The notes under the pieces: model-generated
Told to the model about the DNA's origin: nothing
The model's database searches: none
What the model saw: the letters and a program-made list of their open reading frames with translations, nothing else
In this document: positions 4,076 through 61,519 of the stretch, one piece after another
How the letters are laid out: the number at the start of each line of letters is the position of its first letter
Numbering within the stretch: the first letter of the stretch is position 1
From: Hysterangium stoloniferum
Lineage: Eukaryota; Basidiomycota; Agaricomycetes; Hysterangiales; Hysterangiaceae
Length of the DNA: 64,000 bases
Direction of reading: 5' to 3'
Assembly (NCBI GenBank): GCA_015178975.1
Contig: WHVD01000157.1
Coordinates: 62,001 to 126,000, forward strand
Program-made: the position numbers and the translations under genes

Positions 4076-4638
4076 TGTTAAGTGCCGTGTCGGGAACTTA
4101 TTCCGGAACTATCGGGAGGTCACCGGGAAGTCGGAAACTTGTGGATAGGGTCAGGACATCGGCTTCAGCTTATGTGCTGCGCCTCTACGCAAACGCTCAA
4201 TGTCCTTAATTTCGGAAGTGAACTAACGACGGAAGATATGGATATTCAGAGTTCCGAAGAGTTCCGAATATCGAGCGTACAGAAAGACGGGAGGAGGAAT
4301 AAGAAACTAAGTCGATATCAGATCTAAAGTAAAGTACAAATTCGCGGAAACTAATATAAGTCTACTCGTTATTGTACTACAAACTGAGACCATAATAAGA
4401 CGGAAACAGAAGTATTCTTAAAACGGAAATACAATAAGACATATTAGGAAGACAATATTCCGAGACGGGAATACAACAACAAACGAGTGAATACTTGTCA
4501 ACGGACAAATTACCAAATGCGGAACAAACGAAGAATGCGGATGATACGGTAACTATGATGTTCCGTAGTCGGATATCGGATATCGAAAGTGGGAGATCGG
4601 AAGTCAGATATTGAAACATCCGGGAACGGGTCGTAACA
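4076..4638 (-). repeat. Solo LTR, gypsy family A, minus orientation
   Basis: This 563-bp block begins TGTTAAGTGCC and ends GTCGTAACA. It is the reverse complement of the LTRs at 8121-8668 and 21969-22512. The flanks are GATGA (4071-4075) and GGTGA (4639-4643), a 5-bp target duplication with one mismatch. No internal region in the matching orientation adjoins it, so it is best read as a solo LTR. It keeps many CpGs and looks younger than the LTR at 22519. Confidence 0.85.
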
Positions 4639-4839: not shown

Positions 4840-7800
4840 GTCAACTGTGGGAATCCTGCATGTGACCTTCTTGGAAATTTAGTGTTCTGAGCTCTGATAG
4901 ATTCTGGCTCCACACACTGTTTTGTAGATACCACCTTTGCCATGAAACATAATCTGAAACTCCATTCTGTTCCTGCAATCTCTTTGCATCTATTTGATGG
5001 CACTACCAATATAGCAATTACCCAAGCCTGTGACATGTCTATCCAGTTCCCATGTGGAACATCCAGATGGTTACTTTTTTCATATACATGTAACACAGTT
5101 GGACTCTAGCTGTTCAATTGTTCTTGGATACAACTGGCTCACCTGATATAATCCATTGATTGACTGGGTACTGGACAGTATAACTTTCCAAATTTCTCTC
5201 TGTTTTCAATATGATTATACATTTCTGACCCAGACATCTCAGTGGAAAACCAGATACCATGACTTAACAATGGGATGTCTATCCTAAAGAGGGGGAAAGC
5301 AATTATGCTGTTGTTAACCCATACAATATAAAACCAGTTTATACAATGCAGCAACTTTCCACATATATCTGGGTGACCTCTCTACTATCCAATTGTGTGT
5401 AGCTATGGAAATTGAGCAACTACATCAAGATATCCTCTCTGCACTTACTTCTGATCCAGCTCTCAAGTCACACCTAGACATTCCCACAGTTCCCAATCAA
5501 CCCTGGTGGTCTCAAGGCTCTCAAGGTTTCATCCATCTTGATGGACATATTTACATTCCAGATTCCAACAATCTCTGACTCTGCATACTTCAGTACAAAC
5601 ATGATCATCCAATCTCCCGATATTATGGCATCAATAACACTCTTGGATTAATCCAAAGAGAATACACTTGGCCCAACCTCTGAGATTTCATAACCCAGTT
5701 CTGTAAGTCATGTACCACCTGCTTATGCTCAAAATCCCAACAACATAAGCCATATGGCCTTCTCAAGCAACTTCCAATACCAGAAAAACCCTGGAATTCA
5801 ATTTCCATGGGTTTCATCAAACAACTCCCATCTCCTGAAGGCTATACATCCATCCCCATTGTTGTATATTGATTCTCTAAATAAGGAATTTTCATACCCA
5901 CTAACAATACAATCATGTCCTTGCAACTAGCAGAACTTTTCATCATTCACATGTTCTCCAAATATGGTGCTCCATCTCATATAACTTCAGGTTCCATGTT
6001 TGTCTACCATTTCTTCAAGACTCTTAGAAAAGCTCTTGACATGAAGTTACACTTCACCTATCATCTAGAAGGTGATAGACAAATGGAATGTGTCAACCAA
6101 ACACTGGAACAATACCTCTGCATTTATTGCAACTATCAACAGGACAAATCCCTTCTTCTCACAGAATTTGCTTACAATAACTGTCCAAATGCCACTACTG
6201 GCATCTCTCCCTTCTTTGCCAATAAAGGATACAATCCTAATATTGCAGTCCATCCCAAATGAGATCTGGCATCCACTTGTGCTCAAGAATTTATTACTGA
6301 CTTCAATGGGTTAAACCAGGGACTTCAGAAAGCTATTTCTTCCACCCAGGAAAATTACCAATGTTCCATGTATAAAAACAGAATCCTGCCTCCTAACTTC
6401 AATATTGGAGACCATTTTTTTGTGAAAGCTCACTTCTTCTGAACTACCCAACCTTCCAAAAAACTGCCAAGAAATTCTTAGGTCCTTTTGAGATCATAGC
6501 ACAAGCTGGCTCACTTTCCTGGACTCTCCAACTTCCCAACAGTATGTGAGCAATTCACCCTGTTTTTCACATTTTCATGTTAGAGCCTTGTGTTCCTAAC
6601 AACATCCTGGAACATACACAATCTCTGCTCCTCTGGTCATTATTGATGGAGAACTGAATTTGAAGTTTCCGAGATTTTGGACTCTAAAATCAACAACCAC
6701 TGATGTACATGTAAAGTCACACCAAGAATTTTTTATGCAAGTCAATTATCTTAAAAAAAAAATACAACTATTTCAATGTTTCCCATACCCCAAATTCCTC
6801 CACTGCAACTCCCATCTCATCTGCAATCTCCATCCCAATTTCCACTCCCCTCACCACTTCCTGCATCTCCTTATCTTCACTTCCTGGCTTTTCTCCCCAA
6901 ACCCACCTTTTCTCAACCATATCTGCCAATGGACCATTCAGCTCACCTTTTTCCTTATTGGCATATCTTTCAGAAACTGTGATTATGCCGATACTAACAA
7001 AAATCTCCAAGAATTTGGCCTGTCTCCAGAACTTCCAATTCATCATCCAGAATCCCCTTTCTTGGATGTCATTATGGCACTCTAAGGTCTCCCAAGCCTT
7101 CATCAACTCCAGTCCAATAAATACCATCATGTTCACAGTATCTCTGAGCAGTCCAATACTGGTACCATCATCCACACTCAGCCCTACAGTTTCTGAAGGT
7201 TTGATTGTTTCCAGAGGTTTAGTTGTTCCTGAGTTTTCCACAACTGCTATTTTTTCCATCTTCTCCATTTTCCCCACCTTTTTGACCTTCTGAAATTTTT
7301 TGCCTTTCAGAGTCCACTTCACAGCAAGAGTGCACAGAATCTTGTTTATGGTGCACAGGAAACAGGTGCCACCCCATTTTCCCTTCTGTCTCCAACAAGT
7401 AATGCCCTGGCTCACACATCACTGACATGGAACCTCATGGGCACTGGAGCCCTGGTCTTTTGTTTTTGTTTTGGATGTTAGCCATTTTCCAGAACTCTTA
7501 AAAAATAACCTACTTTTGGACTTGAAGGCCCAGCCTCTTCCTCCTCATCCACATCATTGGCCTTCCACCGTTGTTTTTCCATTATTGGGAACACATGGAC
7601 TATTACTGCACCACTCACCTTTTGTTCCCACTTCTCTTTTAGCTGCTACTCTCCTGTCTCAGCATCCTACCATTTCTTCTCCACCTCATCCCACAGCCTC
7701 TGATCTTCATTTTCTGCAACCATTTGTTCCTCTGCTCTGTGATCTCTTTCTCTGCCCTAATCCACTCCAACTCACATTTTTCTGCCCCTTCCACCTCCTC

Positions 7801-8120
7801 CTCTTGTTGTTGCCTTACCTCCTCCATCCTCTGTCATTTGTGTTGAAGTTCTTCCACTTTTGACATTTCAGCAATTTCAGCTTCTGAGTCTCCTGGAGTG
7901 GTGGTACAGTAAATAAGGGACAATGAATGGACATGCAAGTTGTGGTTAAAGAAAGAAATCACTAATCAAATATTTGAAAGTTCTTACATATGTATACTCG
8001 GACCAGCAGCCAAAACTCTTCATTTCCAAACACACATTTTTTCACAACACATAATGGATAACTGACAGTTAAATGCTCAGTACCTAATCACCTCTATGGG
8101 ACTTCAGCCTAACAGGGGTA
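4840..8120 (+). mobile_element. Old Ty3/gypsy family-A copy (internal part)
   Basis: These are remains of the internal region of a family-A element. They include a protease-like DSGST motif near 4900, integrase pieces (about 5400-6260), a chromodomain-region remnant (about 6480-6710), the antisense accessory ORF region (6768-7866) and a polypurine tract (about 8108-8120). Much of pol is absent and the rest is heavily broken, with many breaks. Its 3' LTR lies at 22519-23065, separated by the younger insertion 8121-22512. Aligned with the younger copy it has lost most CpGs, so it is the oldest family-A copy here. Confidence 0.85.
6768..7866 (-). other. Antisense accessory ORF region of old family-A copy
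   Basis: On the strand opposite pol, between the chromodomain remnant and the polypurine tract, lie two open stretches. The first (7866 down to about 7639) is rich in Glu, Arg and Gln with coiled-coil character. The second (7415 to 6768) contains the later cysteines of the cluster seen in the other copies, C-X10-C-X2-C-X6-C, followed by a helical Met/Leu-rich part and an acidic tail. The same order occurs at 20641-21714 and 18545-19538. It is a fossil and not intact. Confidence 0.6.
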
Positions 8121-8668
8121 TGTTACAACCCGTTCCTGGATGTCTCAATATCCGAATCCTGATCTCCGACTACAGAACATCATAGTTACCGTATCTTCCG
8201 CATTCTTCCCTTGTTCTGCATTTGGTAATTTGTCCACTGACAAGTATTCACTCGTTTGTCTATTATATTCCCATTTTGAAATATTGTCTCCCCAATATGT
8301 CTTATTGTATTCCCATTTTTAGAATACTCCTACTTCCATCTTATTATGGTCTCAGTTTGTAGTACAATAATGAGAAGACTTATATTAGTTTCCACGAATT
8401 TGTACTTTACCTCAGATCTGATATCGACGTAGTTTCTTATTCCTTCTTCCGTCTTTCTGTATGCTCAATATTCGGAACTCTTCGGAACTCTGAATATCCA
8501 TCCGTATCTTCCATTGTAAGTCTCACCTCTGAAATTAAGGACTTTGAGCGTTTGTGTAGAGGCGCAGCACATAAGCTGAAGCCAACGTCCTGACCCTCTC
8601 TGACAGTTCCCGACTTTCCGGTGATTTTCCGATAGTTCCGGAATAAGTTCCCGACATGGCACTTAACA
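8121..8668 (+). repeat. 5' LTR, family A
   Basis: This 548-bp LTR begins TGTTACAACC and ends CACTTAACA, with the 5-bp GGGTA duplication just upstream (8116-8120). The stretch complementary to the primer site is at 8414-8424, which by analogy with Tf1-like self-priming elements would mark the start of the transcript (R). An upstream TATATTAG stretch is compatible with a promoter. Confidence 0.9.
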
Positions 8669-8670
8669 GT

Positions 8671-8681
8671 ATATCAGATCT
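8671..8681 (+). promoter_or_regulatory. Self-priming primer-binding site, family A
   Basis: Two bases after the 5' LTR, ATATCAGATCT is the exact reverse complement of AGATCTGATAT at 8414-8424 inside the same LTR. Tf1/sushi-type chromoviruses prime reverse transcription with the folded 5' end of their own RNA, using an 11-nt match of this kind. No tRNA 3'-end complement is seen at this place. Confidence 0.7.
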
Positions 8682-11600
8682 CAACTCTGCGACTCGCTCA
8701 TCATGGGTCCCAAATGCAAAGCTGCCAAAGGACCATCCCAACTTCAATCCCCATTGCAACTTTACACCACTCAACCCAAAACCCCAATTCAGCTGACAAC
8801 ATCAGCTTCAGTCGAAGAAGTTACTGAGGAAGTTACCGAGGTAACAAGGGATCCCAATATTCCCCACACTTCCGACAACGAAGCAGAAGATCAGCCGGAA
8901 TCATCGAAAAAGAAATCTTCCGATGAACTGACTGAAATGTTGTTTATCAACTCCATTGTGAAATTTGCTGACTATTTGAAATTTGCTGACTATTTGAAAT
9001 TTGCTGACTATTTGAAATCCGCTGAGGATAGTAAAGAATCATTCCACACCGGAGTCAAAGAACCCGAACCATTTACCGGCAAGGATCCGAAAAAATTGAA
9101 GAATTTCCTTCTCCAATGCCATTTCAGTTTCCGTGATTGACCCCTGCATTTAAATCTGACAGTCGAAAAGTCAATTTCACACACTCTTATCTCAAGGATC
9201 CCGCTCAGGATTGGTTCGAACCTGGACTATCTGGAATATCTGACGAGACACCTGCATGGCTCAATGACTGGGATGCTTTTGTGGAAGAACTAGAAACTAA
9301 TTTCGGACCTTACGATCAATCCGGTGAAGCGGAAAATGAACTAATGACGCTTAAGATGAAGGACAATCAACGAGTTTCTGATTATCTGGTCAAGTTCAAT
9401 ACCCTCACCGCATGATGTGGTTGGGATGATTCTGCCCTCAGGCACCATTTCTATATGGGACTTCTGTCACTCCTTAAAGACGAGATCTGCAAAGATGGGA
9501 AGCCAAAACTCTCCAACTCATGCAGATTAAAGCTCAAACATCCAATGCCCATTTTTGGGAACGAAAAGCCGAGGTCTCTCGAGAGAACCTGACAGAACAT
9601 TCTCAGAACAACAAAGTGTCGACTAGCAAGTCTTCTGGCAATAACTCAGGCAATAACACCAGCAACTCTGGCACTAATACTGGTAAATCAAACTCCAACT
9701 GGAAAAAAGACAAGAAATCCAACAAGGATAAACAGTCAACTTCTGACAAACCCGACATTTCCCATTTGTTGGGCACCAATGGTAAACTCACCCCGAAGGA
9801 GAAACAACGACATATGGACAATGACCTCTGCCTTTTCTGCAGGAAAGGCGGACACAAGGTTTCCGACTGTACTGTTAAATCTAACTCTTCCAAGGCCTGC
9901 ACGGCAACTTCCACTACAACTACAACATCTAAGGAAAAACCTGCCACGGAGTCGAAAAAAGAGTAAGCAACCCTCCAGAATCTGCACGGACAGAGGATTG
10001 CATTGACTCTCTCCGTGTTTCCAAGGTTATCCGTCTCAATGCGTCCACTCTCTCTAATCCCGATTCATTATTTGTAAAACTTGTCTCTGACTTTCTTGGA
10101 AATGTAGTGTTCCGAGCTCTGATAGATTCTGGCTCCACACACTGTTTTGTAGATACCACCTTTGCCACGAAACATAATCTGAAACTCCATTCTGTTCCCA
10201 CAATTTCCTTGCATTTGTTTGACAGCACTAGCAATACGGCAATTACCCAAGCCTGCGACATGTCTATCCAGTTCCCTTGTGGAACATCCCAGACGGTTAC
10301 TTTTTTTGTAACACAGTTGGACTCTAGCTGTTCAGTAGTTCTTGGATACAACTGGCTCACCTGATATAATCTGTTGATGGACTGGGTATTGGGCAGTATT
10401 AATTTCTGAATTCCCAACACTTTGGTTCCTCCTGCAGTGCCTTTTCCGGCCAACACCTTTTCAGCATCAACGGCATCTCCAGCTTCTACCGAAACCTCTG
10501 TGCCTCCAAAAATCTCTCATCAACGCTTCAGCATTTGTTAGGGTGAGTAAACTGGATGGTTCGCAGTGTTTTTCAATCAGCTTAAAAGTTGATGAAGCAT
10601 CTGGACATTTTGCGACTCCAGAACTATCTCAGCTAAAAGCCGACCTGGAAGGAGTTCCCAAAAAATACCATGATTTCGCGGACATTTTCAGTAAGCAAAA
10701 AGCTGACAGGCTTGCACCACATAGGCCCTACGACTTAAAAATCGATATTGAGCCCGGTTCAAACCCTCCGTTAGGACCTATTTACCCATTATCCCAATTG
10801 GAACTTTCTTCTATTCAGGAGTTCCTGGATGAACATCTGTCAATAGGTTTTATCTGTCCCTCAAAGTCTCCATATGGAGCGCCCATCCTTTTCATCAGAA
10901 AGAAGGATGGCTCCCTTCAACTCTGCATCGATTTCAGAGGATTAAATTCCATCACACGGAAAGATAAGTATCCACTTCCACTCGTTACCAATTTACTCGA
11001 CACCCCACAGAAAGCTCAGATCTACACCAAAATAGACCTCAAACACGCCTATCATTTGGTCTGAATTTCCGAGGGCGATGAATGGACTGCTTTTCGGACT
11101 CGCTATGGATCCTTTGAATGGTTGGTTATGCCGTTCGGCCTTACCAACGCCCCTTCCCCTTTTCAACGTTTTGTTAATGATATATTTTCCGACTGCTTGA
11201 CGTATGTGTTATAGTCTATTTGGATGACATTTTGGTATTTTCCGAGGATCCCACTCTTCACGATGAACAGGTCCGTGAAGTTTCCGAAGACTCCAAAAAA
11301 ATGGTCTTTTCGCCAACAGTAAAAAATGTTACTTTGACATGGATTCTATTGAATATTTAGGTTTCATTATCGGACCTGAGGGTCTCTGTATGGATGAAGC
11401 CAAGGTTCAAGTTGTCCGTGATTGGCCCAAACCACAGAAAGTCAAGGACATTCAGTCATTTTTAGGTTTCACCAACTTTTACTGTCATTTTATTCGGAAC
11501 TACTCGGATATTACAGTACTGCTCACTCGTCTTACCCATAAAACTCAACCTTGGGGTCTTTGACGATAAATGCCGTTCCGCTTTTCAGACTTTAAAAAAT

Positions 11601-12720
11601 GCTTTCACTTCTGCCCCGATTCTGTCCCATTGGAAACCTGATGTTCCGATTATTGTAGAAACCGATGCTTCTGATTATGCAATTGCCACGATTCTTTCCA
11701 TTCAAGATTCTGACAGTGAAATTCATCCAGTCGCATTCCTTTCTCAGACACTGAAAGTGTCTGAACTCAACTACGACGTTCATGATAAGGAACTTTTGGC
11801 AATTTTTGAAGCTTTCAAACATTGGCGCCATTATCTCGAAGGTGCCGCAACTCCCATTGACATTGTTACCAATCACAAAAATCTCGAATATTTTTCTACC
11901 ACTAAACTTTTGACCCGCCGGCAAGCCCGCTGGTCCGAATTCCTTTTTGCTTTCAACATGATTATCCGTTTCCGACCCGGACGTCTTGGTGGAAAACCAG
12001 ATGCCATGACTTGACGATGGGATGTCTATCCTAAAGAGGGGGAAAGTAACTATGCTGTTGTTAATCTGCATAACTTGAAACCGGTTTTTACAATGCAACA
12101 ACTTTCTGCATCTATTCGAGCAACTTCCCTCTAGTATCCAATTATGCGTAGCATCATGATTATGGACATTGAGCAATTACATCAAGATATCCTTTCCACA
12201 CTCACTTTCGATCCGGCTCTCAAGCCACACCTAGAAGTTCCTGACAATCCCGACCAACCCCGATGGTCACAAGACTCTCAAGGTTTTATCCGTCTCAATG
12301 GACGTATCTATGTTCCAGATTCCAACAATCTCCAACTCCGTGTACTTCAGTATAAACATGATCATCCAATCTCTGGACATTACGGCATTAACAATACTCT
12401 TGGTTTAATCCGTAGAGAATACACTTGGCCCAACCTCCGATATTTTGTAACCCAGTTCTGTAAGTCATGCACCACCTGCTTACGCTCTAAGACCCAGAGG
12501 CATAAGCTGTACGGCCTTCTCAAGCAACTCCCAATACCAGAAAAACCCTGGAACTCAATTTCCATGGATTTTATCAAACAACTCCCAACTTCCGAAGGCT
12601 TTACATCCATTCTAGTTGTTGTGGATCGATCCTCGAAACAAGGCATTTTCATACTCACTCATGATACAATCACGTCCTTACAATTAGCAGAACTTTTCAT
12701 TATTCACGTATTTTCCAAAC

Positions 12721-13444
12721 TGTTATGACCGTGTCACAACCCTATCAGTCCCGAGATTATCGCCACTTATCAACGTTTTCAAGTCACCACTTCGGAAACC
12801 ATCGGCCCCCGAAGCTGACGTATGCTTTCTTGATGATCAAACTCCATTTACGCCCATGTCAAAATACTCGTATTGTCTGGTTAAACTTTTGATACGTCCC
12901 TTTTATTATGTTGATCCATTCTATCCTATGTTTCACATATGTGTATCTATATTTGTAGTCCTCAAACTATTTCCTTTTGTCATAATTCTGCTCTCGGTTA
13001 TCATCAGCCTCCAAACTAATCATAAACTTCCCGTTCCTAGTCAAGCTTATTGTTAATACCATTTTCTGCCCTTCTCCCCATTAGTATTTTCTAGATGCCT
13101 GTTACTTGTATATGAACCTGCTGTAGTTGTAGTTACTAGGCAATCAGAATATTGGCTCAGAATACCCTCATACGTCTGTAACAGTCCCATACTAAGAATT
13201 CCCCCATCTGCCTTCACATGCGCTCGCCCACTTCTGGCCCTGACCCCTTGGCCCGACACTCGACTTGTCCTTCGGTTCCGATCGGTATCTCACCGAAAGG
13301 AACTCTTTAGGATTAGTCTTCGCCCGTCTGAAATCTAAGGACACCCTACAGATATTTGCGAGGGTGCAGCACATAAGCTGAAGCCGAGTCCTTCCGATCG
13401 GTCCCTGTTGGCCACTGACATTAGTCAGTTTTCAGTTCTTAACA
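12721..13444 (+). repeat. 5' LTR, family B
   Basis: This 724-bp LTR begins TGTTATGACC and ends TTCTTAACA. The same LTR occurs as solo copies at 36440-37162 (minus) and 37615-38574 (plus). The transcript start predicted by self-priming is near 13142. Confidence 0.9.
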
Positions 13445-13446
13445 GT

Positions 13447-13457
13447 ATATTCTGATT
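13447..13457 (+). promoter_or_regulatory. Self-priming primer-binding site, family B
   Basis: Two bases after the LTR, ATATTCTGATT is the exact reverse complement of AATCAGAATAT at 13142-13152 within the LTR. The length (11 nt) and offset (2 nt) match family A although the sequence is different, so the pairing itself appears conserved. Confidence 0.7.
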
Positions 13458-16400
13458 TCACACTCGCATTTTCCATTTAATCATGCCTCCAAGAAAAAAT
13501 GCCAAGCCAAGTGGCGAAGCAGAATCTTCCACTCTCAAGTCTCCTTTCCTGTATACAGCCCGAGCTACTCAGAGAACCCTGCTACCAGAAACCTCTGAAG
13601 AATCTCACTTTGTGGAGATTACCAGCGATGCTGAAGAAGTAACTGAAGCAACCGAACCCGAAGCAACTGAAGAGATTAACAATCAACCAGTTCCGGAACA
13701 CGAACCCGAGGATGGCGACCAACCTCAGGCTAGTGGTTCCAAGAAGTCCGCAAAAAAGAAACCGGCTCTCGACCCTGAAGAGACATGGGAATTGTTCTCA
13801 GGTACTCTAGGATCCCTTAACAAATTCCTTAGAAGCAATATCAAGGAAAAGGAACCTGGGCAAACCCGAGTCAACAAACCCGAACCATTCACTGGCTCAA
13901 ACCCAAAGAAACTGCTGACATTTCTTATGCAATGTCAATTCAACTTTCGGGACTGCCCGGCTGCATTCACAACAGATGACCGAAAGGTAAACTTTGCATT
14001 CTCGTACCTTAAAGGATTCCGCAGCAGCCTGGTTTGAACCCGCATTCTCTGGCCTCACCTCTGAAGACCCCGATTGGCTTCACGATTGGGATGCCTTTGT
14101 TGAGGAACTCAAAACCAACTTTGGTCCCTACGACCACACCGGCAATGCTGAAACCGCGATTTCTAATCTCAAAATGAAAGACACCCAGCACATCACCGAT
14201 TACATCATCCAGTTCAACAACCTTGCCACGTGTTGCGACTGGGGCGATTCGGCCCTCCGTTACCAGTTTTACTCCAGCCTTCCATCTCACCTCAAAGACG
14301 AAGTTTCCAAAGGAGAGACCGGCAAGCTGAAGACCCTCCCTCTCATGCGTCTGAAAGCCCAAAATGCAGACACCTGATACTGGGAACAATGTTCAGAAAT
14401 TAGTCACGAAAACCCCTCGGACAAAAAATCGTCGGACAATAAGAACGCCAACAAGTCTGGTAATCAAAACACCAACAACAGTGGCAACTTGACCTCCGAT
14501 AAGAAGTCCGAAAACAAAGGGTCTAACGACAAAAAAGGCAAGGGAAAACAGTCGAATAAGTCTCAAGACAAAGACAAACCCGACTTAACTGGCAAACTCA
14601 GCTCCAATGGCAAGCTCCTACCACAGGAAAAGCAATGCTGAATGGACAACAACCTTTGTTTGTTGTGCACAGATCCCGGACACTGAGTCACTGCATGCCC
14701 AAAGGCCACAAAAGCCCGATCGGCCAATACAGCCACGACCTCACAACCAGCTGCCGAGTCGAAAAAAGATTAAGCAACTCTCTGCATTCCATGCGGTTGG
14801 AGAGTTGCCTTGAATCTCCTCGCACACCAGAAAATTGTCACCTTAATGCATCCGCCTTGTATGATCCTAATTCCTTGTTCATAAATCTTACTTCAGAACC
14901 TCTCGGGAGTCTCACTTTTCAAGCCCTCATAGATTCAGGTTCAACCCATTGTTTTATAGATACAAGTTTTTCCCAAAAAAATCAGTTAAAAACCTATGCA
15001 ATAGACCCGATTCCGCTCCAACTCTTTGATGGTACCTCAAACTCCATAATCTCGCAAGCCTGCGAACTCCGACTTCGGTTCTTGTGTGGAACCTTTCAGA
15101 CAGTTACGTTTTTTGTAACACAGTTGGACCCGAGTTGCTCCGTGGTTCTAGGACATAACTGGCTCACCTGCTACAATCCATTGATTGATTGGGTATTGGG
15201 CAGTATCCATTTCCGAACCCCGTCGGCACCCGATATGACTGGTCTGTTTCCACCTGTTTCAGCAAATATGGCCTCTACAGCACCTCTGGACCCCGTGGCA
15301 AATCCGAGCTCTCCGCCACCTGTCTCTCTAATAAACACCACAGTGTTTATGAGAGCCATCAAGTTGGATGGCTCCCGAGCATTTACAGTCAATCTTAAAG
15401 TTGATGAAGTCACCAGTCACTTTGCATCCCCAGTGGCCGAACCAATCGCAGATTTGGAAGGTGTTCCCGAAAAATACCATGAATTTGCAGATGTCTTCAG
15501 TAAACAAAAAGCCAATTGACTCACCCCCCACAGGCCTTACGATTTGAAAATTGATATTGAAGAAGGTTCACATCCACCCCTAGGCCCAGTTTATCCTCTC
15601 TCGCAGTCCAAATTATCAGCTATCCGAGATTTCTTGGACAAACATTTGGCTATAGGTTCTATCTGACCCTCAAAGTCTCCTTATGGAGCCCCTGTCCTAT
15701 TCATTCGCAAAAAAAGACGGTTCCCTTTGGCTTTGCGTTGACTTTCGAGGACTAAATGTGATCACTCGAAAAGATAAGTACCCGTTACCACTAATCTCCG
15801 ATTTACTCAATGCCCCTCGGAAGGCCCGAATTTATACAAAGATAGATCTCAAGTATGCCTATCATTTGGTTCAGATCGCCGAAGGTGATGAATGGAAAAC
15901 AGCTTTTCACACTCACTATGGCTCCTTTGCATGGTTAGTGATGCCTTTCGGCCTCACCGACGCTCCGTCAGTCTTTCAATGTTTTATCAACAACGTCTTT
16001 TCCGACCTCCTTGATGTCTTTGTCATTGTGTACTTAGACGACATCCTCATATTCTCTGAAGATCCTACACTTCATGACAAACACATTCGTGAAGTCCTCC
16101 GAAGACTCCGAAAACATGGTCTTTTTGCGAATGGTAAAAAATGTTCCTTTGATGTCGACACAGTTGAATATTTAGGTTTTATGATGGGACCTGATGGTCT
16201 CTGCATGGACAACTCTAAAATTCAAGTCATTCAACCCCAAAAGGTTAAAGATATTCAGTCCTTTTTAGGCTTCACCAATTTTTATCGTCATTTCATTCAC
16301 AACTACTCAAAAATTACCATTCCACTCACTCGTCTTACTCGCAAAGATGCCCCGTGGATTTTCTCTGAGGAATGCCGATCGGCATTCCAGGAATTGAAAA

Positions 16401-18544
16401 GTGCATTTACATCTGCCCCTATTTTGTCGCACTGGAAGCCCAACATTCAACTCATCATGGAAACTGATGCCTCAGACTACGTGCTTGCTGTGATATTGTC
16501 CATTCTGGACACTGATGGTGAAGTACACCCAGTAGCTTTTCTGTCTCGCACATTTTCGGTGCCCAAACTCAACTATGATGTTCACGATAAGGAACTACTT
16601 GCAATATTTGAAGCTTTCAAGACATGGCGACATTATTTGGAAGGATCAGCCCAACCGGTAGATGTTATTACAGACCACAAAAATTTAGTTTACTTTTCAA
16701 CCACAAAACTTCTCACCCGTCAACAAGCTCGATGGTCCGAATACCTCTCTGCTTTCAACATGGTAATTCACTTCTGTCCTGGCTGCCTTGGTGGAAAACC
16801 CGACGCTATGACTAGACGATGGCATGTCTATCCTAAAGAGGGGAGTAGCAACTACACCACAGTTAATCCGCATAATTTCAAGCCTATGTTTTCATCAGAA
16901 CAACTATCCATGTCTATCCGAGCCACTTACCTCATTCATCCAGTCTTGTGAAGTGTTATCCTTATGGATACCGAAAGGTTACATCAAGACATACTATCGG
17001 CAATTCCATTAGACCCAGTCACCAAAGCACACCTCGATAACCCGTCCGACCCCGATCAACCCCGATTGTCATTAGACTCACAAGGTTTCATTATATTTGA
17101 CAATCACATTTATGTACCGAACTCCGACACCCTTTGGCTGCGAATCCTACAACATAAGCACGACCACCCAATCTTGGGACATTTCGGCCTCAATAAGACC
17201 CTCTCACTCATTAGAAGGGAATATACATGGCCCGGCATCCGAGATTTTGTTAAGCACTATTGTAAATCTTGTACTATGTGTCTACACTCTAAATCACAGC
17301 GACACAAACCATATGGCCTACTCAAACAATTACCGATACTGGAAAAACCTTGGAACTCGATTTCTATGGATTTCATCGAGCACCTACCGGCATCTGAAGG
17401 TCACACAGCAATCCTAGTTGTTGTGGATCGGCTTACAAAACAAAGTATTTTTATTCCAACATATGACACGATAACATTGGTACAGTTAGCTGAATTATTT
17501 GTCACCCATGTATTTTCCAAGCATGGCGTTCCATCGCATGTCACATCCGATTGCAGATCCGAGTTTGTCTCTCACTTCTTTAGGTCACTTGGAAAAGCAC
17601 TAGACATGAAGTTACATTTCACTTCGGGCTATCACCCGGAAGGCGATGGCCAAACCAAACGCATGAATCAAACCTTGGAACAATACATCCGTGTCTATTG
17701 CAACTATCAACAAGACAATTGGAAATCACTACTACCGCTAGCCGAATTTGCATATAACAATGCACCAAATGCCACTACTGGCATTTCACCTTTCTTCACA
17801 AATAAAGGCTACAACCCCAACATCGCAATCCACCTGGAACACGATCTCACATCCACCCATGCTCAAGACTTTGTTATAAACCTTGACGAGCTACATCAAG
17901 AACTTCGTAAAACTATTGCAATGGCTCAAGAACGATACCAATGGTCTGCAGATAAGAACTGACTTCCGCCTCCTGATTTCAAGATCGGAGACCGAGTATT
18001 CGTTAAAGCCGAGTTTTTCCGAACTACTAGACCTTCTAAGAAGCTCTCTGAAAAATATTTAGGTCCTTTTGAAGTTATAGCACAAGCTGGCACGCTCTCA
18101 TGGACGCTTCGGCTCCCCAACAACATGCATGCAGTGCACCCGGTATTTCATGTATCCATGTTAGAACCTTGTGTTGCTAACAGTATACCGGATCACATAC
18201 AACCACCTCCTCCACCCGTGATTATTGATGGGGAACCCGAATTTGAGATATCAGAGATCCTAGACTCAAAAATCGACAATTGCCGACACTCATGCAAATT
18301 ACTTTATTTGGTTAAATGGGCTGACTATGAAGGTACAGATGAAGAAACTTCATGGATCCTAGCTACAGAGCTCAGTAATGCCTCGGAAATCGTTTTAGGG
18401 TTTCACCAAGCCTATCCAAACAAACCCGGTCCTCTAAACTCTTTATAAGTCTATCACGCAGTATTCCGACCCTTTTCCGACTATGCATTTATGATTTTCA
18501 CGCTATGACTTGTTTGTTTTTAAAAACCAATATATTTTTACTAT

Positions 18545-19538
18545 CTAAGTTTCTTCCTCTACAACTTCTCCTTCCTCTCCGGCTTCCGAACCTCCCCCCG
18601 CACTGACAGCCACCGATACCGCTCCACTGACCTTTTCCGACACCCCAATCTCGTGCCCAACTCCATCGCAACTCGAGACTTCCAAGTACTGCTCAAGCTG
18701 ACCCCCAAGAGACTTGATAATGCTGGTCTGCTTCTCCAGCCTGACGCCCAAAAACCGCAACTGCTCGGTCATGAGCCCTTGTTGTCACAGAGTCTCGAAT
18801 CAGAACCGAGTTGTTTCCGAGAAATAAGTCCACATGAGGTGGTTTTGCTCTTCCAGAGCATCGGCCTGTCGCTCCTGGAATGATCCATTGGCCCCTGGGA
18901 AGACACATCCAAGCTTCTGATTGGCACACTCTTGACAAGTGCGGCCCCAACCATTGGCCCGAGGATGGCAGGTTCGACCCCGTTTCATGCACCGATTGCA
19001 CTTAGGGTCGTTTTCGGGCCCCACCTTGGGGGCCTGTTTTTGTTTCTATAGGAAAATTATTAGAAAAGTTTTTATTTAGGAAACTGAACCCACCTTGGGG
19101 CTTGACGGCCCCAGTGCATCCTCCTCGTCCTCCTCTTCCTCTTCATCATCGGACTCCAAAGGCATCGCAGCCTTGCGCTAAATATATATAAGTCAGTAAG
19201 GTTTGCAAAAAACACTGGAGCCGACTTACCTTCCCCTTCCACTTCTTTTTCACCGCCTCCTCTCACACCCAATCAGCCTCCTGCTGCTTTTTCTTCGCAA
19301 GCACTGCATCCCAGTGCTTGCGCATGGCCTCTTCCGCCGCCTGTTTCTTCTCCTTGGCCTCTATGGCTGCCAACTCCTCCTTCTCCTTCTGCTCCTCCTC
19401 TTCACGTGCCTTTCTCTTCTGCTCGAGTACACGACAACGTTCCTGCGCATTCGCTGGTCCACTCGGGACCGACATAGGAGCAACCATTAGCCGAACCAGG
19501 AAGGGTTTCGACCCTGAACCTATGGTCATGGAGGTCAA
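18545..19538 (-). other. Antisense accessory ORF of family-B element
   Basis: Opposite to pol and 3' of the chromodomain, this region encodes a Glu/Lys/Arg-rich coiled-coil block (19538 to 19263). Further along it encodes a cysteine cluster (about 19024-18910) with spacing C-X2-C-X6-C-X10-C-X2-C-X6-C and basic residues after the second cysteine. That spacing fits the fungal Zn(II)2Cys6 binuclear cluster. Intron-like gaps separate the blocks. Function is unknown. It belongs to the element, because the same arrangement occurs in both family-A copies. Confidence 0.65.
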
Positions 19539-20640
19539 GGGAAGAGAAGTGGAATTTCAAGTGCCAGGACCCCTTGAATTTTTATATGTAATTTTTTGCC
19601 AAGTCACATGATGTTTTGACACACCCATCTCATGTAACTTCTGATCGAGGCTCCAAGTTCGTCTCCCATTTCTTCCAGGCCCTCGGAAAAGCCCTCGACA
19701 TGAAACTACACTTCACCTCGGGATATCACCCAGAAGGTGATGGACAAACGGAACGTGTAAATCAAACATTGGTACAATATCTCCACATCTATTGCAATTA
19801 TCAACAGGACAACTGGAAATCCCTTCTTCCGATCGTGGAATTCGCCTACAATAACTCTCTGAATGCAACTACCGGCGTATCTCCTTTTTTCACCAACAAA
19901 GGCTATAATCCAAATCTCACTGTACATTCCGAATGAGATTTGGCTTCTGTCCATGCTCAAGAATTTATTACCGACCTCAACGAATTACATCAAGAACCTC
20001 GGAAAGCTATTTCTTCCACACAAGAATATTATCAATGTTCTGCGGACAAAAACAGGATCCCACCTCCTAATTTTAAAATTGGTGATCAGGTTTTTGTAAA
20101 AGCTCAATTCTTCCGTACTACCCAACCTTCTAAAAAAACTCGCTGAGAAATTGTTAGGCCCTTTTGAAATTATAGCACAAGCCGGTTCACTCTCATGGAC
20201 TCTCCAACTTCCCGATAGTATGCGAGCAGTTCACCCCGTTTTCCACATTTCCATGTTAGAACCCTGTGTTCCTAACAAAATCCCGGAACATATTCAACCT
20301 CCGTCCCCTCCAGTCATCATTGACGGAGAACCCGAATTTGAAGTTTCCGAAATTTTGGATTCTAAAATTGACAATCGCCGACATACTTGTAAATTGCTCT
20401 ATTTAGTCAAATGGGCAGGATATGAAGGTACTGACGAGGAAACTTCATGGATATTGGCCATGGAACTTGGACATAGTATGGAAATTGTTACTGACTTCCA
20501 CACAGTTTATCCAAGCAGACCTGGACCTTTATCATCACTCTAACCCTTTTCTGTTTTCTTTCTGTTCAGTCTCCGACACTTCTGACACTTCCGATATCAC
20601 ACTTGTTTTTAGGTTTTAAAAGTCAAAAATATTATTAGGA

Positions 20641-21714
20641 CTATCTTAGAGTCTCTGATACCCCAAATCCACTTTCCATCCCGACTTCTGTCTCATCAGC
20701 AACCTCTGCACTTTCCACCATATCCTGCACCTCTTCATCCTCACTCTCTGATACTTCCGGCCCATTTCCTGACTCCCACCTCTTTTCGACACATTCCACC
20801 AATGGATCATTAGGCTGTTCCCGTGCCTTATCGGAAAATCTCTTGGATACTGCAATAACACCGATGCTAACCATTACCTTCTCCAGGAATTCATTTTGCT
20901 TCTGGAAGTTCCAGATCAACGAACGGAAACCTTTTTCCTGGATTTCATTATGGTAATCTAGTGTATCCCACATTTTCATGACTTCCATCCTGATAAAGAC
21001 TAACGCGTCAATGGTGTCCTTGAGGAGCTCCATGCCTGTACTATCCATTTTCGGCACCTCAATTTCCACAGCTTTGGCCACTCCCGAACTTTCCACGTCG
21101 TTAGCTTTCTGAGCCTTCTCACCTTTTGGAACCCTTTTCGAGGCGAGAGTGCACGGAAGTTTGAGAACCACGCAGGGATAGCAAGTTCCACCCCATTTTA
21201 CCTTCTGTTTCCAACACATCATATTCTGTATGGAACATCGATAACACAGATTGTCATGGACGACTTCCATCCGTTCCGGAGCCCTGACCTTTGGCTTCTG
21301 TTTCAGAAGTTAATCAATTACCGGCCTTTTGTAGATGCACTTACTTTAGGACTTGAAGGTCCAGCCTCTCCCTCTACCTCCACCTCCACGGCTTTTCACT
21401 GTACCCAATAGTTATCGGTTGGAACCATGAAAACTTATGGATTGCACTTACCTTTCCTTCCCTTATCTCCTCACGTTTTTTTGCCGCCTCTGACTCCCGC
21501 TGTAACTTTTCCGCCTCTTCCTTCTTCTTCTGAGCCTCCGCCGTTTTCCGGATCCATGCTTCTTTTTCCGCCCTCACTCGCTCCAACTCCCATTTTTCCA
21601 CCTCTTCCGCGTCTTTCAACTCCTGCATCAATGCCTTTTCCTCCTCCTCCTGTCGTCGCTTCAACTCCTCCATCCTTTGTCATTTTTGTTGAAGTACTGT
21701 GACTTTCGACATTT
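20641..21714 (-). other. Antisense accessory ORF of younger family-A copy
   Basis: A coiled-coil block (about 21673-21374, rich in Glu/Lys/Ala) is followed by a 209-codon open stretch (21270-20641). Near its start this has the cysteine cluster C-X2-C-X6-C-X10-C-X2-C-X6-C, the same spacing as in family B. A Leu/Met-rich helical part and an acidic tail follow. It lies between pol and the 3' LTR on the opposite strand. The cluster resembles Zn2Cys6 DNA-binding domains; a regulatory or DNA-targeting role is inference only. Confidence 0.7.
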
Positions 21715-21968
21715 TTTGAAGTACGGCAATTTTGGTATCTGAATCTTCTGGGGTAGTGATGAATAAAGGCCAATGAATCGACATGCAAGTTGTGGATAAA
21801 GAAACAAATACATTAATTCGAATATTTGGAGGTTTTTATACTCAGAACAACAGCCGAAACTCTCACCTCCAGAATTGCGTAAATTTCACGACACATAATA
21901 ATCAGCCATCGCTTCAATCACTCAGTACCTAATCACCTCTATGGGATTTCGGCCTAACAGGGGGGTAC

Positions 21969-22512
21969 TGTTACGACCCGTTCCCAGATGTTTCAATATC
22001 CGACTCCCAATCTCCAACTACGGAACATCATAGTTACCATATCTTCCGCATTCTTCCCTTTTTCCACATTTGGTAATTTGTCCGCTGACAAGTATTCACT
22101 CGTTTGTCTATTATATTCCCGTTTCGAAATATTGTCTCCCCGATATGTCTTATTGTATTCCCATTTTTAGAATACTCCTACTTCTGTCTTATTATGGTCT
22201 CAGTTTGTAGTACAATAATGAGAAGACTTATATTAGTTTCTGTGAATTTGTACTTTACCTCAGATCTGATATTGACTTAGTTTCTTATTCCTTCTTCCAT
22301 CTTTCTGTACGCTCAATATTCGGAACTCTTCGGAACTCTGAATATCCGTATCTTCCATTGTAAGTCTCACCTCTGAAGTTAAGGACTTTGAGCGTTTGCG
22401 TAGAGGCACAGCACATAAGCTGAAGCCAACGTCCTGACCCTATCTGACAGTTCCCGACTTTCCGGTGACTTTCCGATAGTTCCAGAATAAGTTTCCGACA
22501 CGGCACTTAACA
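21969..22512 (+). repeat. 3' LTR, family A (younger copy)
   Basis: This 544-bp LTR begins TGTTACGACC and ends CACTTAACA, preceded by the polypurine tract (about 21957-21965) and followed by GGGTA (22513-22517). It pairs with 8121-8668. Confidence 0.9.
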
Positions 22513-22518
22513 GGGTAC

Positions 22519-23065
22519 TGATATGACCTGTTCCCAGATACTTCAATCTTCCATAATTATCTGTAATGTTCCTTAACCTTCTGACCTGACTTCCAATCTG
22601 ACTTCCATCCATGGAAAGTTTATAGTTCCTATAGTTCCAAACCTCATCCTTGTTCCACATTTGGTAACTTGTCAGTCAATAAGTATTCATTTGTTTGCTT
22701 GTTGTATTCCCATTTCAGAATACTTCCCTAATCCATCTTATTGTGATCCTAGTTTGTAGCACAATAACAAAAGAACCTATATTAGTTTCCACAAATTTGT
22801 ACGTACTCTACTTTAGATCTGATATCAACTTAGTTTCTTATTCCTTCTTTCTTTCTGTACACTCAATATTCAGAACTCTTTGGAACTCTGAATATCCATA
22901 TTCTTCTGGCATAAATCCTTTCTATGAAATTAAGGATATTCTGAACATTTGCATAGGGGTGAAGCACATAAGCTGAAGCCCACATCCTGACCCTATCCAG
23001 AAGTTTCCAAGTTCCTGGTTATTTCCCAATAGTTCCAGAATAAGTTCCCGACATGGTACTTAACA
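22519..23065 (+). repeat. 3' LTR of the old family-A copy
   Basis: This diverged family-A LTR begins TGATATGACC and ends GTACTTAACA. It directly follows the remnant GGGTAC of a polypurine tract and lies 6 bp after the younger copy's 3' LTR. It is much poorer in CpG than the LTRs at 8121 and 21969, in keeping with the decayed internal region at 4840-8120 to which it belonged before the younger insertion. Confidence 0.85.
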
Positions 23066-24141
23066 GCATGACATACCCCTTACCTCATGACTCTTAGTAA
23101 TTCAGCCCTCTGGTTGATTGAGCTGAGTGTCAATCTTCATCTCCTATCATATTATCTGCTCTGTTGGAAACACTGGAGCACCCTTGAGGGTCATTAGAAT
23201 GTCAGTCCACTCTGGGGCTTTGGTATTTTCTTTCTGTTTCTGGATATTAGTTTAAGATCCAAAATTCAAGAAAAAAACTTACTTTTGGACTTGAAGGCCC
23301 AGCCTCTTCCATATTGACCTTGACCATTTTCTGCTGTTTTGTTTGTTAGGAGAATATCTAACAGAAACTTAGTTTCCACTCATCGTCTTTTCCCACCTCT
23401 CCTTCAACTTCTGCATCTCCTCTCCTGCAATAGTGGATCGTAGGATTCAATGTGGTCTGGTAGAAGGGGCAAATACCTGATTTGTGTTGTGTCATTTATT
23501 GTGCCCCATGTGATACCCACCATAATGTTAGATTTGGAAATACAATATCTATTGAATGTTCAAGCTGTTATAAGTCCCTAGTTGGCATCAGTTCAGATGT
23601 GACTGTATAAGTCCCAAGGTAGCATCAGAAGGACCTATGGAATATGTATATATAATCCATTATATCTCACTAGACCAATAGGTCCAGTAGCTCAGTGGTT
23701 GAGAGCACTGCTTATATAAAGCTAGTCAGTTTGGTATCAATATAGGATGCAAGAGCTTTATTGGTAAATCTGGGTGATTGATACATTGTGGCTACTCTTC
23801 CATTTCAATCCTCTGTTGTTGTACGACTGTACCGCACGATTCCCGCACGACCCTCGGTAGAGTATTCACTAAATAGACCTTTTTTGCTTGTTTTTTTTTG
23901 AAATTTATAACCCAACATTCCATCCCACTTTTCCCAAGTAAAATAAAAAAGGTGTTCCCACAAGTCATATCGAAGTTATCAAATGTGACTTTGGTGTCAC
24001 TCGAATGTAACAGGTGATGTGTCACTTCGGGTTGTTAGGCGCCCTGTCGTGCTGTCACGGTAAAGCACCGCCAAGCTTTCATTAGTAGGTTTGTGATGTC
24101 CCTGCTGAGCAGCTTTCATTGCCCACTTTGAGCACGCTGGC
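23066..24141. other. Gene-free stretch with gypsy and SINE-like remnants
   Basis: At about 23140-23420 a further remnant of the family-A 3' accessory region is visible, including 'GGACTTGAAGGCCCAGCCTC' as at about 7517 and 21352. A tRNA-like box A/box B pair lies at 23681-23745. Beyond that, 23790-24141 is the upstream region of the BEACH gene, without a recognised motif. Confidence 0.5.
23681..23745 (+). repeat. tRNA-derived SINE-like remnant
   Basis: A box A match TAGCTCAGTGG (23688-23698) is followed 34 nt later by a weaker box B, GGTATCAATAT (23733-23743). The 3' side does not pair with the 5' acceptor side, so this is not a working tRNA. It is best read as a tRNA-derived SINE head or tRNA relic. 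Confidence 0.4.
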
Positions 24142-36439: not shown

Positions 36440-37162
36440 TGTTAAGAACTAGAAACTGACTAATGTCGGTGGCCGACGGGGACCGATCGGAAGGACTTGG
36501 CTTCAGCTTATATGCTGCGCCCTCGCAAATATCCGTAGGTTGTCCTTAAATTTCGGACAGGCGAAGACTAAATCCTAAGAAGAACTTTTCGGCAAGACAC
36601 CGATCGGAACCGAAGGAAAAGTCAGGTGTCGGGCCAAGGGGTCGGGGCCGAGAGTGGGCGAGCGCACGCGAAGGCGGAAGAGAGATTCTCCTAGTATGAG
36701 ACTGCTACAGACGTATGAGGGTATTCTGAGTCGATATTCTGATTGCCTAGTAACTACAATTACAGCGAGTTCATATACAAGTAACAGGCGTCTAGAAAGT
36801 ACTAATGGGGAGGAGGGCGGAAAACGGCATTAACAATAAGCTTGACTAGGAACAGGAAGTTTATGATTAGTTCGGAGGCCGATGATAACCGAGAATGGAA
36901 ATTACGATAAAAGGAAATAGTTCGAGGACTACGAATATAGTTAGACATATGTGGAACATAAGATGAGACGGATCAACATGATGAAAGGGACATATCAAAA
37001 CATAACCAGACAGAAAGGCGTAGTCGGGTTTGATTGACCGGAGAGCATACGTCAGCGTCGGGGGTCCGACGGCTTCCGAGGTGTTGTATTGTCGGAGACG
37101 TATAACGAGGGTATTCCGTCGGGGGCCGTCGGTTTGCGAAGGGTTACGACACAGTCGTAACA
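36440..37162 (-). repeat. Solo LTR, family B, in KDZ transposase
   Basis: This 723-bp block begins TGTTAAGAAC and ends GTCGTAACA, the reverse complement of the LTR at 12721-13444. The 5-bp duplication CCTTC is perfect (36435-36439, 37163-37167). Many CpGs are kept, so it looks relatively recent. Confidence 0.9.
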
Positions 37163-37614
37163 CCTTCCATGGTCATGCACACAACCGTTCCTGTCAATTA
37201 TCCTACCATGTAGGGATGTGCAAAGGCTTTGGACTTGAAGACTGTGAAGTTTGTGAACATGTCTTTTCAGGTTCAAATAAGATTGCATGTTGTACCTGGC
37301 ACTCAACTATCTATCACTGAAAGCAATTTATTGACATGTACTTTCATCAATGGGATCTTGACAAATATGAGAATCTAGGTGAGTACTTTTTGATTGGAGT
37401 TATCAATCCTAATATTATTTTAGCTACATTCCTGCTCAATAACTACCAACAAGCACTAAAGATCATTAGTGAGATAACAATGTGCCAGAAAATGTTGACA
37501 CCAGAACAAGTGATTCCAGATACTCAATTTATGAAATGGCTTGATGAAGAACGGGCCTATCTGAAATCCAAGGCATCTGAGCCAGAAAAGGATATATTGA
37601 GTATTGAATATGTG

Positions 37615-38574
37615 TGTTACGATCGTGTCGTAACCCATGTCGCAACCCGATGGTCTCCGAGAATACTACAGTCTATCAATGTTCGAAGTTATTGATCAAG
37701 TCATCATTTCGGCAACCTTCGGAACACCGACACTGACGTATACCTTCACGGCGATCAAACCTCGTTTACGCCCCTGTCAAAATATACTCTACCATCTGGT
37801 TATGCTTTGATACGTCCCCTTTCATTATGATGATCCGTTTTACTCTATGTTTCACATATGCCCATATATACCTGTAGTCCGTGGACTATTCCCTTTTCTC
37901 GTAATCCCGCTCTCGGCTAAATCTCGGCTTCCGATCTCATCGTGACCTTCCAGTTCCTAGTCAAGCTTATTTGTCAATGCCGTTTTCCGCTCTTCCCTTA
38001 GTTAGTAGTTTCTAGACGCCAATAACCCATATATAAACCTGCTGTAATGTAACTACTAGACAATCAGAATATCGACTTAGAATATCGACTTAGATCGACT
38101 TATATATCCCTCTAATTTCCGACTCTCAGTCCCCGACTGTCTCAGTCTCCGACTGTCTCAGTCTCCGACTGTCTCAGTCTCCGACTGTCTCAGTCTCCGA
38201 CTCTCAGTCCCCGACTGTCTCAGTCTCCGACTGTCTCAGTCTCCGACTGTCTCAGTCTCCGACTCTCAGTCTCTGACTCTCTCGGTCTCCGACACTCTCA
38301 GTCTCTGACTCTCTCGGTCTCCGACTCTTTCAGTCTCTGACTCTCTCAGCCTCCGACTCTTGGTCTCTGACCCCTCAACCCAACCCTCAACTTATCCTTC
38401 GGTTTCCGATCGGTAGTTTACCGAGAGGTTTACTTGACAGGACTAGTTTTCGCCCGCCCGAAATTTAAGGACACCTGACGGTAACTTGCGAGGGCGCAGC
38501 ACATAAGCTGAAGCCAAGTCCTTCCGTTCGGTCCCCGTCGGTCTGCCGACATCCGTCAGTTTCTGCTCTTAACA
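37615..38574 (+). repeat. Solo LTR, family B, with expanded minisatellite
   Basis: It begins TGTTACGATC and ends CTCTTAACA. The 5-bp duplication ATGTG is perfect (37610-37614, 38575-38579). At 960 bp it is longer than the other family-B LTRs because of a tandem repeat at about 38116-38370. The self-priming segment CAATCAGAATAT is conserved near 38070. Confidence 0.9.
38116..38370 (+). repeat. 16-bp minisatellite inside solo LTR
   Basis: About fifteen imperfect units of the type CCGACTGTCTCAGTCT are present, with some shortened units (CCGACTCTCAGTC). The array accounts for most of the extra length of this LTR relative to its 723-724-bp relatives. Confidence 0.9.
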
Positions 38575-60600: not shown

Positions 60601-61519
60601 TTTTTCTCTGATCCCCATTCCATTCTGATATGCTTTTATTTTCGTCTTATTATTAGAAAATTAGCACACTAGAAAAACGCATGACCTCAAACCCTTTACA
60701 CGGCACTCCTGAACTCCCAGCACTCTACGATATGTATGCAAGCAAGGACGACTGCCGCTTGCGTATACGCAATATCAAAAAGAAAATTCAATCGACCCAC
60801 GATGTCCTCCAACTAGAGGAGCTTAAATGCAGGAAACGTGTTCTGCGGCGATTGGGCTTTACGACTAACGCGGATATCGTAGATATGAAAGGACGTGTCG
60901 CGTGTGAAATTAGTACTGGAGATGAACTGCTCTTGACTGAGTTGATCTTCAATGGCGTGTTTAACCCGCTCTCTCCGGAGCAATGTGCGGCACTGTTGAG
61001 TTGCTTTGTATTTGGAGAAAGAGTACGTTCCCATTGATACATCTATGTTCCATACCCTTAACTCACTGTCGATTGCTATGCAGAGTGAACAGACTGTGCG
61101 ATTAAAAGAGGAGTTAGCTGCGCCCCTACGCGTGATGCAGGAGATCGCGCGTCGGATAGCCAAGGTGGCCAAGGAGAGCAAGTTACCGATTGTGGAGGAC
61201 GAATATGTAGCAAGTTTCAAGGTGGAACTCATGGATGCTGTTATACAATGGTGTCGCGGCGCCTCGTTCGCGGATATCTGCAAGGTCTGTTGTGAGTTGT
61301 TGATGGGCAGCAGCACATACTGACTGATTGAACCAGCTCACCGATCAATTCGAAGGCAGTTTGATTAGAGTTTTCCGTCGTTTGCAAGAGCTCATTCGAC
61401 AGATGACACAAGCTGCGAATGTTATTGGTAATTTGGAGCTTGAGGAAAAATTCAAAAAGGCCTCGGAGATGCTTGGGAGGCCTAATTCTGTTATATTTTG
61501 TTCCAGCTTGTATCTGTGA
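57654..61519 (+). CDS. MTR4: Mtr4 exosome RNA helicase
   Basis: This is a nuclear Ski2-family DEVH-type ATP-dependent RNA helicase that, in the TRAMP complex, feeds RNA to the exosome. The hand model has 11 exons: 57654-58028, 58081-58335, 58390-58503, 58556-58646, 58711-59061, 59126-59827, 59905-60146, 60207-60581, 60657-61022, 61084-61284, 61337-61519. It totals 1085 codons with stop, a normal Mtr4 length. It shows an acidic/basic low-complexity N-terminus, Walker A AHTSAGKT (about 179-186), DEIH (270-273, Ile where Val is usual), SAT (301-303), [10 protein letters not shown] (544-553), the arch/KOW insert, and the conserved C-terminus ending [13 protein letters not shown]. The start [13 protein letters not shown] fits the family. 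The donor of intron 8 (60582, GTTGGT) is weak and the least certain junction. No sign of decay. Confidence 0.95.

Follow-up and report, generated by a model that had tools for sequence, protein, structure and literature searches.

We analysed a 64,000-nucleotide (nt) stretch of the Hysterangium stoloniferum genome (GenBank assembly GCA_015178975.1, contig WHVD01000157.1, positions 62001-126000 of the forward strand; the contig is C65 in our numbering and the stretch is called the window below), in which three chromovirus families, designated A, B and C, are nested one inside another. The genome searched comprised 111 Mb in 554 contigs. All three families carry a separate predicted protein-coding gene on the strand opposite pol, referred to here as the antisense gene. 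It occupies the interval that separates the chromodomain-bearing end of pol from the 3' long terminal repeat (LTR). The original prediction for this DNA had described an antisense coding block with a coiled coil and a cysteine cluster in three gypsy copies, opposite pol and 3' of the chromodomain. The block is present in all three stretches and does lie 3' of the chromodomain, but it lies 97 bp (A) or 96 bp (B) past the pol stop codon and does not overlap pol; the three copies are likewise there, but nested rather than side by side, with C split by A and A split by B.

Structure, selection and putative promoter of the antisense gene

The gene of families A and B comprises three coding exons separated by two phase-0 GT-AG introns (coordinates in Table 1). 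Exon 1 is charged and probably helical, exon 2 is acidic and ends in GPSSPK in both families, and exon 3 holds a six-cysteine cluster followed by a helical part and an acidic tail. GT and AG were intact at all four splice sites in 10/10 copies of family A, and in 29/29 copies at three sites and 28/29 at the fourth in family B. Introns measured 47-56 nt across the two families, often not a multiple of three, and differed between copies by one to nine bases, again often not by threes, so that an unspliced frame would break. One A copy, L073, gives without any alteration a predicted spliced product of 339 residues, with the cysteine cluster in the middle of the protein behind the charged region. 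Read unaltered, 1/10 A and 10/29 B copies have a spliced frame that is open through 130 or more codons of exon 3. The predicted coiled coil was not supported: in one A copy the heptad score of exon 1 was 0.75, and shuffles averaged 0.73, with 130 of 200 reaching the observed value, so that the exon does no better than its composition, and the heptad pattern of the C-terminal part of one A copy was also weak (40 of 200 shuffles as good).

To estimate selection we used the ratio of nonsynonymous to synonymous substitution rates (dN/dS). Copies of A (L069-L078) and of B (L039-L068) were taken from among the top-ranking matches at the protein level, which biases the sample towards conserved copies; ten further, lower-ranked A copies were picked by hand (L079-L088) and cover only the part from about the third cysteine onward. 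One of the 30 B copies was left out of the splice-site and exon analysis for its short match. Copies of C were chosen by DNA similarity, and as their 22 rows held the window copy twice, dN/dS was computed over 21.

The antisense frame is under purifying selection in families A, B and C. For the cysteine-bearing exon, the pooled dN/dS in the gene frame was 0.252 in A (20 copies; 95% range by codon bootstrap 0.197-0.319) and 0.175 in B (30 copies; 0.122-0.249), with disjoint-pair values of 0.229 and 0.188, so that the frame is not neutral when set against the others. Four of the remaining frames gave 1.04, 1.02, 0.92 and 1.15 (A) and 1.07, 1.23, 1.06 and 1.52 (B), and one sense-strand frame that has its third codon positions in common with the gene frame gave 0.297 (A) and 0.285 (B). 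This shadow frame is what could be said for an artefact, namely a frame left open by composition or mirroring a sense gene; yet every copy has stops in it, 2.7 per copy in A and 4.9 in B. In the gene frame 15/20 A and 12/30 B copies of the exon are stop-free, compared with zero in each of the five other frames. Together with the contrast in dN/dS this leads us to reject a chance frame or a sense mirror, and we give an artefact practically negligible probability. In family C the exon had a dN/dS of 0.287 (21 copies), compared with 0.75 and 0.67 when the same strand was read in its two remaining frames.

The two upstream exons gave low ratios as well (0.27 and 0.15 for exons 1 and 2 of A, 0.27 and 0.27 for those of B, where exon 1 was computed from a downstream in-frame ATG over 246 nt). 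The contrast is weaker for exon 1, whose strand's other two frames gave 0.80 and 0.59 (A) and 0.87 and 0.99 (B), and in the short exon 2 the other frames of the strand scatter from 0.39 to 3.1. With increasing divergence dN/dS of the cysteine exon drops, from 0.68 through 0.38 and 0.19 to 0.12 in B and from 0.40 through 0.27 to 0.24 in A, as is expected if selection works in transposing lineages while inserted copies drift. TGA codons of the kind left by CpG decay account for 21 of the 24 stops that interrupt the B exon. The 3' end of pol gave best-frame values of 0.33 over 10 copies in A and 0.22 over 25 copies in B, and the antisense gene is thus constrained about as strongly as pol.

Searches with the exon of each family found at least 150 places for A (150/150 scored places matched, out of 461 candidates) and at least 150 for B (150/150, out of 571). 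When chromodomain ends were paired with these places, a comparison that took in 66 of the 150 A and 34 of the 150 B exon places, the antisense gene lay downstream on the opposite strand in 31 of the 40 best A ends and 34 of the 40 best B ends; the 9 A and 6 B ends without it had, by eye, no exon place nearby among the 150 places listed for each family, out of 461 and 571 candidates. Two non-fungal collections yielded no confirmed relative among the stretches with the cysteine pattern, 39 in IMG/VR and 34 in the GTDB contigs.

Ahead of the putative start codon, both families carry a TATAAAA box on the antisense strand (Table 1), located in the spacer just outside the 3' LTR. Such a motif is expected by chance about 0.02 times per 110 bp. 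The B count refers to the 27 copies, out of 30 loci, that have the searched start context, and the three of these that lack an exact TATAAAA carry a variant at the same place. Averaged along the 1.3-kb profile of A, the spacer varies less than any other part, diverging by 0.024-0.056 per 30-bp block; the corresponding ranges are 0.044-0.157 for the LTR and 0.067-0.179 for the gene. When the 150-bp spacers around the box were compared between an A copy and a B copy, no significant match emerged (best E-value 0.37). Transcription from a conserved antisense TATA box would produce RNA able to pair with the genomic RNA at its 3' end, and the RNA itself might outweigh the protein, with convergent transcription forming double-stranded RNA and so dampening the element; roles of this kind have been discussed in plants (PMC7264820; this and the other papers cited by PMC number were available in part). 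We consider this improbable: selection acts on amino acids, the cysteine exon reaching a dN/dS of 0.12-0.24 at the deepest divergence compared with at least 0.92 in the non-shadow frames of A and B, and the retention of introns and cysteines points to a protein.

With its introns and a putative promoter of its own, the gene also looks like a captured cellular one, and capture is considered in the plant review (PMC7264820); a host gene once captured in antisense might be a passenger, conserved merely since active lineages are young. Such a passenger would drift, whereas the A and B clusters, 33% identical over 39 aligned columns, both retain introns, cysteines and a dN/dS well below 1, which makes this very improbable. 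The predicted retention of the gene across diverged families through selection was borne out, by the purifying dN/dS in A, B and C and by the conservation of splice sites and TATA box.

The cysteine cluster and the likely role of the product

On the minus strand of each window copy the cluster follows the spacing C-X2-C-X6-C-X10-C-X2-C-X6-C; it lies at 21246 in A, at 19000 in B and at 7427 in C, where a stop separates the first cysteine from the second. A and B are identical in spacing, as had been proposed. A six-frame scan of the window allowing a middle loop of 8-12 residues found the pattern at those three sites only. The six cysteines are intact in 30/30 B copies, and the A copies covering each successive cysteine all keep it (10/10, 10/10, 15/15, 20/20, 20/20 and 20/20), so that no A or B copy spanning the cluster departs from the spacing. 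Fungal Zn(II)2Cys6 domains have the form C-X2-C-X6-C-X5-12-C-X2-C-X6-8-C, and the spacing in A and B falls within this range (PF00172).

We then compared the clusters with Zn(II)2Cys6 domains of the host. The full pattern was present in 12 of 20 fetched host stretches, with loops of 5-11 residues, and one of these domains (L105) has the same 10-residue loop as the antisense cluster. Eleven of the domains were used, L108 being dropped for its 8-residue last spacing. In hhalign the B cluster matched these domains with a probability of 89%, and none of 100 shuffles with fixed cysteines did as well; the A and B clusters are homologous to each other by the same test (95%, 0/100 shuffles). With the A structure model as a Foldseek query, the Zn(II)2Cys6 factors Pho7 (E-value 0.52) and Put3 (E-value 3.8) ranked first and second of six matches, both weak. 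In A the cysteine block has a lower dN/dS than the rest of the exon (0.195 vs 0.250). Among 52 PF00172 matches in the host genome none lies on the window contig. As a separate observation, several PF00172 matches are closely grouped on contigs C56, C115 and C309, and may represent multi-cluster or amplified Zn(II)2Cys6 genes.

We propose, with a probability of roughly 0.55, that the antisense gene is a dedicated accessory gene whose product would act as a nuclear zinc-cluster protein on the element's own DNA or on chromatin. Judged from its sequence, its most likely role is that of an element-encoded nuclear DNA-binding regulator. The gene would be transcribed from its own internal promoter in the spacer, towards pol, and its transcript spliced; the introns would persist because the genomic RNA of the element is sense, and antisense introns cannot be spliced from it. 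Introns likewise survive in laboratory antisense-intron reporters owing to the opposite-running RNA. The product would then enter the nucleus, bind zinc through the cluster, probably dimerise via its helices, and bind element DNA in the LTR or spacer, tuning the element's transcription; alternatively, it may bind chromatin and help place new copies. CGG/CCG triplets exceeded shuffles in the A LTRs (16.2 vs 9.3, 9 copies), and the best spaced CGG/CCG pairs occurred in 6/9 A and 23/25 B LTR copies, a count for which there is no null and from which we claim no site.

Several results weigh against this proposal. The majority of the copies examined are interrupted, including the A and B copies of the window. 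The gene frame of A exon 1 is stop-free in just 3/10 copies, compared with 2/10 in another frame. CGG/CCG triplets in the B LTRs do not exceed shuffles (20.4 vs 19.7, 25 copies), and no spaced pair common to A and B LTRs was established. Against the host Zn(II)2Cys6 domains the A cluster reached an hhalign probability of 4.5%, with 43 of 100 cysteine-fixed shuffles as good. The window B copy scores 10.3 bits of the 21 demanded by the Pfam Zn_clus (PF00172) profile, on a partial match of profile positions 16-31 to residues 12-27; 14 of 19 B members match weakly (best E-value 0.026), and the window copies of A and C have no Zn_clus match. No relative in PDB was found by sequence for the B exon or the B profile, the structure models are poor (predicted local distance difference test, pLDDT, 44 for A and 63 for B), and the B model had no Foldseek match. 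In B the cysteine block shows weaker constraint than the remainder of its exon (dN/dS 0.298 vs 0.160).

Compared with fungal Zn(II)2Cys6 transcription factors (PF00172), the antisense product shares the cysteine spacing and, in the B profile, an apparent similarity beyond the cysteines; unlike in those factors, its cluster sits mid-protein after a charged region, the window copies fall below the Pfam cut-off and A shows no such similarity. Zn(II)2Cys6 membership, which the original prediction had put forward, is thus only partly supported: the spacing is of that type and B appears to lean that way. Small cysteine clusters often bind nucleic acid in general, and with A lacking detectable likeness beyond the cysteines, the antisense protein could be real and use its zinc cluster and charged helix to act on RNA or virus-like particles instead of DNA, for example in packaging, in nuclear export or in Gag-like assembly. 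This we regard as rather unlikely, since the spacing is of the Zn(II)2Cys6 type, the host domain L105 has the same loop length, and B resembles the host domains. Narrowing the preferred reading of a nuclear zinc-cluster protein further, it is possible, though at less than even odds, that a fungal chromovirus lineage encodes its own zinc-cluster transcription factor from an intron-containing antisense gene with its own promoter, regulating the element or aiming its integration.

Nested elements in the window

The C body extends up to position 8120, where the A element splits it at the border between the end of its polypurine tract and the 3' LTR, with GGGTA flanking the A insertion on both sides. 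The B element is inserted within the integrase region of A, and its 3' end is missing, including the polypurine tract and the 3' LTR (window 19590-19630), so that at a junction near 19614 the B spacer runs directly into the A integrase. As expected of chromoviruses, A and B have a PF00385 chromodomain above the cut-off, and B has RVT_1, RNase H and integrase domains.

Table 1. Features of the antisense gene and of the nested elements (positions in the window)
Feature	Position	Strand	Remarks
Family A exon 3 (cysteine cluster, helical C-terminal part, acidic tail, stop)	20641..21297	-	dN/dS 0.252, 20 copies
Family A exon 2 (acidic, ends GPSSPK)	21345..21398	-	window copy has in-frame stop; GT/AG of both introns in 10/10 copies
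Family A exon 1 (charged, probably helical)	21452..21784	-	window copy interrupted; dN/dS 0.271; ATG in 10/10 copies
TATAAAA box, 56 bp ahead of putative family A antisense ATG	21834..21840	-	10/10 copies, identical spacing
Family B exon 3 with cysteine cluster	18545..19045	-	window copy has internal stops; dN/dS 0.175, 30 copies
Family B exon 2 (acidic, ends GPSSPK)	19094..19177	-	splice sites in 28-29/29 copies
Family B exon 1 (charged, probably helical)	19230..19529	-	window copy interrupted; dN/dS 0.274, 29 copies
TATAAAA box, 57 bp ahead of putative family B antisense ATG	19580..19586	-	24/27 copies, identical spacing
Family C antisense gene, decayed copy	6768..7866	-	cysteine cluster at 7427 with one stop; family cysteine-exon dN/dS 0.287, 21 copies
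A pol 3' end with chromodomain	20142..20543	+	PF00385 27.6 bits, cut-off 25.1
B pol 3' end with chromodomain	18050..18448	+	PF00385 25.3 bits, cut-off 25.1
5' LTR of A element	8121..8668	+	GGGTA before; 93% identical to A 3' LTR
3' LTR of A element	21969..22512	+	GGGTA after
5' LTR of B element, in integrase region of A	12721..13378	+	88.5% to LTR beside another B copy (L065)
Probable 3' LTR of C element, parted from C body by A insertion	22519..23065	+	78% to A LTR over 374 bp

Elsewhere in the window we noted an inverted LTR at 4076-4636 with 86% similarity to that of A, LTR sequences of the B type at 36506-38508, where they occur in either orientation, and a host gene resembling the exosome helicase MTR4 at 59155-60611. 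Downstream of the C 3' LTR, at 23283-23336, lies a possible remnant of an antisense gene around the GPSSPK exon (E-value 0.32, weak taken alone).

Related antisense genes and significance

The original prediction had called an antisense gene in a chromovirus unusual, which was overstated, as both plant and fungal elements provide precedents. In plants, the Tat/Retand-lineage elements Grande (gene23), RIRE2, Retand and PvRetro13 carry antisense genes between pol and the 3' LTR (PMC7264820, PMC11963269). Gene23 of Grande has an upstream promoter (PMC7264820), and for the products of the plant Retand-type genes DNA binding is predicted and a regulatory role suggested (PMC7264820, PMC11963269). 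As far as these partial sources go, the genes described here resemble those of Retand and Grande in their place and in having a promoter, here a putative one, upstream; unlike them, Retand belongs to a non-chromovirus lineage, and its domain is TRP28 (PF04195) and not a six-cysteine cluster. No PF04195 match was found in the window A, B and C exons at an E-value of 10, or in exons 1 and 3 of L073 at an E-value of 1.

Among fungi, Zhao et al. 2011 reportedly described a Boty-like element of Botrytis cinerea with an antisense gene, brtn. Boty-like elements of Botrytis combine a chromodomain with this gene (PMC7264820, PMC8365987, PMC4227169, PMC5987419). Compared by description, from the parts of these papers available, Boty is likewise a fungal element with gag, protease, reverse transcriptase, integrase and chromodomain plus an extra antisense gene; unlike the elements studied here, its host is Botrytis. 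Further afield, the antisense gene HBZ of human T-cell leukaemia virus (HTLV) encodes a basic leucine zipper (bZIP) protein. It too is read from near the 3' LTR; the HTLV antisense promoter lies inside that LTR (PMC7264820), unlike the TATA box here, which sits in the spacer between LTR and gene. In some fungal elements an 'add. ORF' (open reading frame) of unknown function is marked (PMC2864245, available in part). Our literature searches, which reached papers partly in excerpt, found no description of this antisense gene in basidiomycete chromoviruses.

Taken together, selection, splice sites and promoter evidence argue that a lineage of fungal chromoviruses maintains its antisense accessory gene for the protein it encodes, a case that parallels the plant Retand elements and Boty. 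The antisense orientation offers a simple explanation for introns retained within a gene of a retroelement. If the lineage does encode its own zinc-cluster factor, it is this orientation that would allow a gene with introns to persist in a retrotransposon. The evidence also makes the role of antisense accessory genes directly testable.

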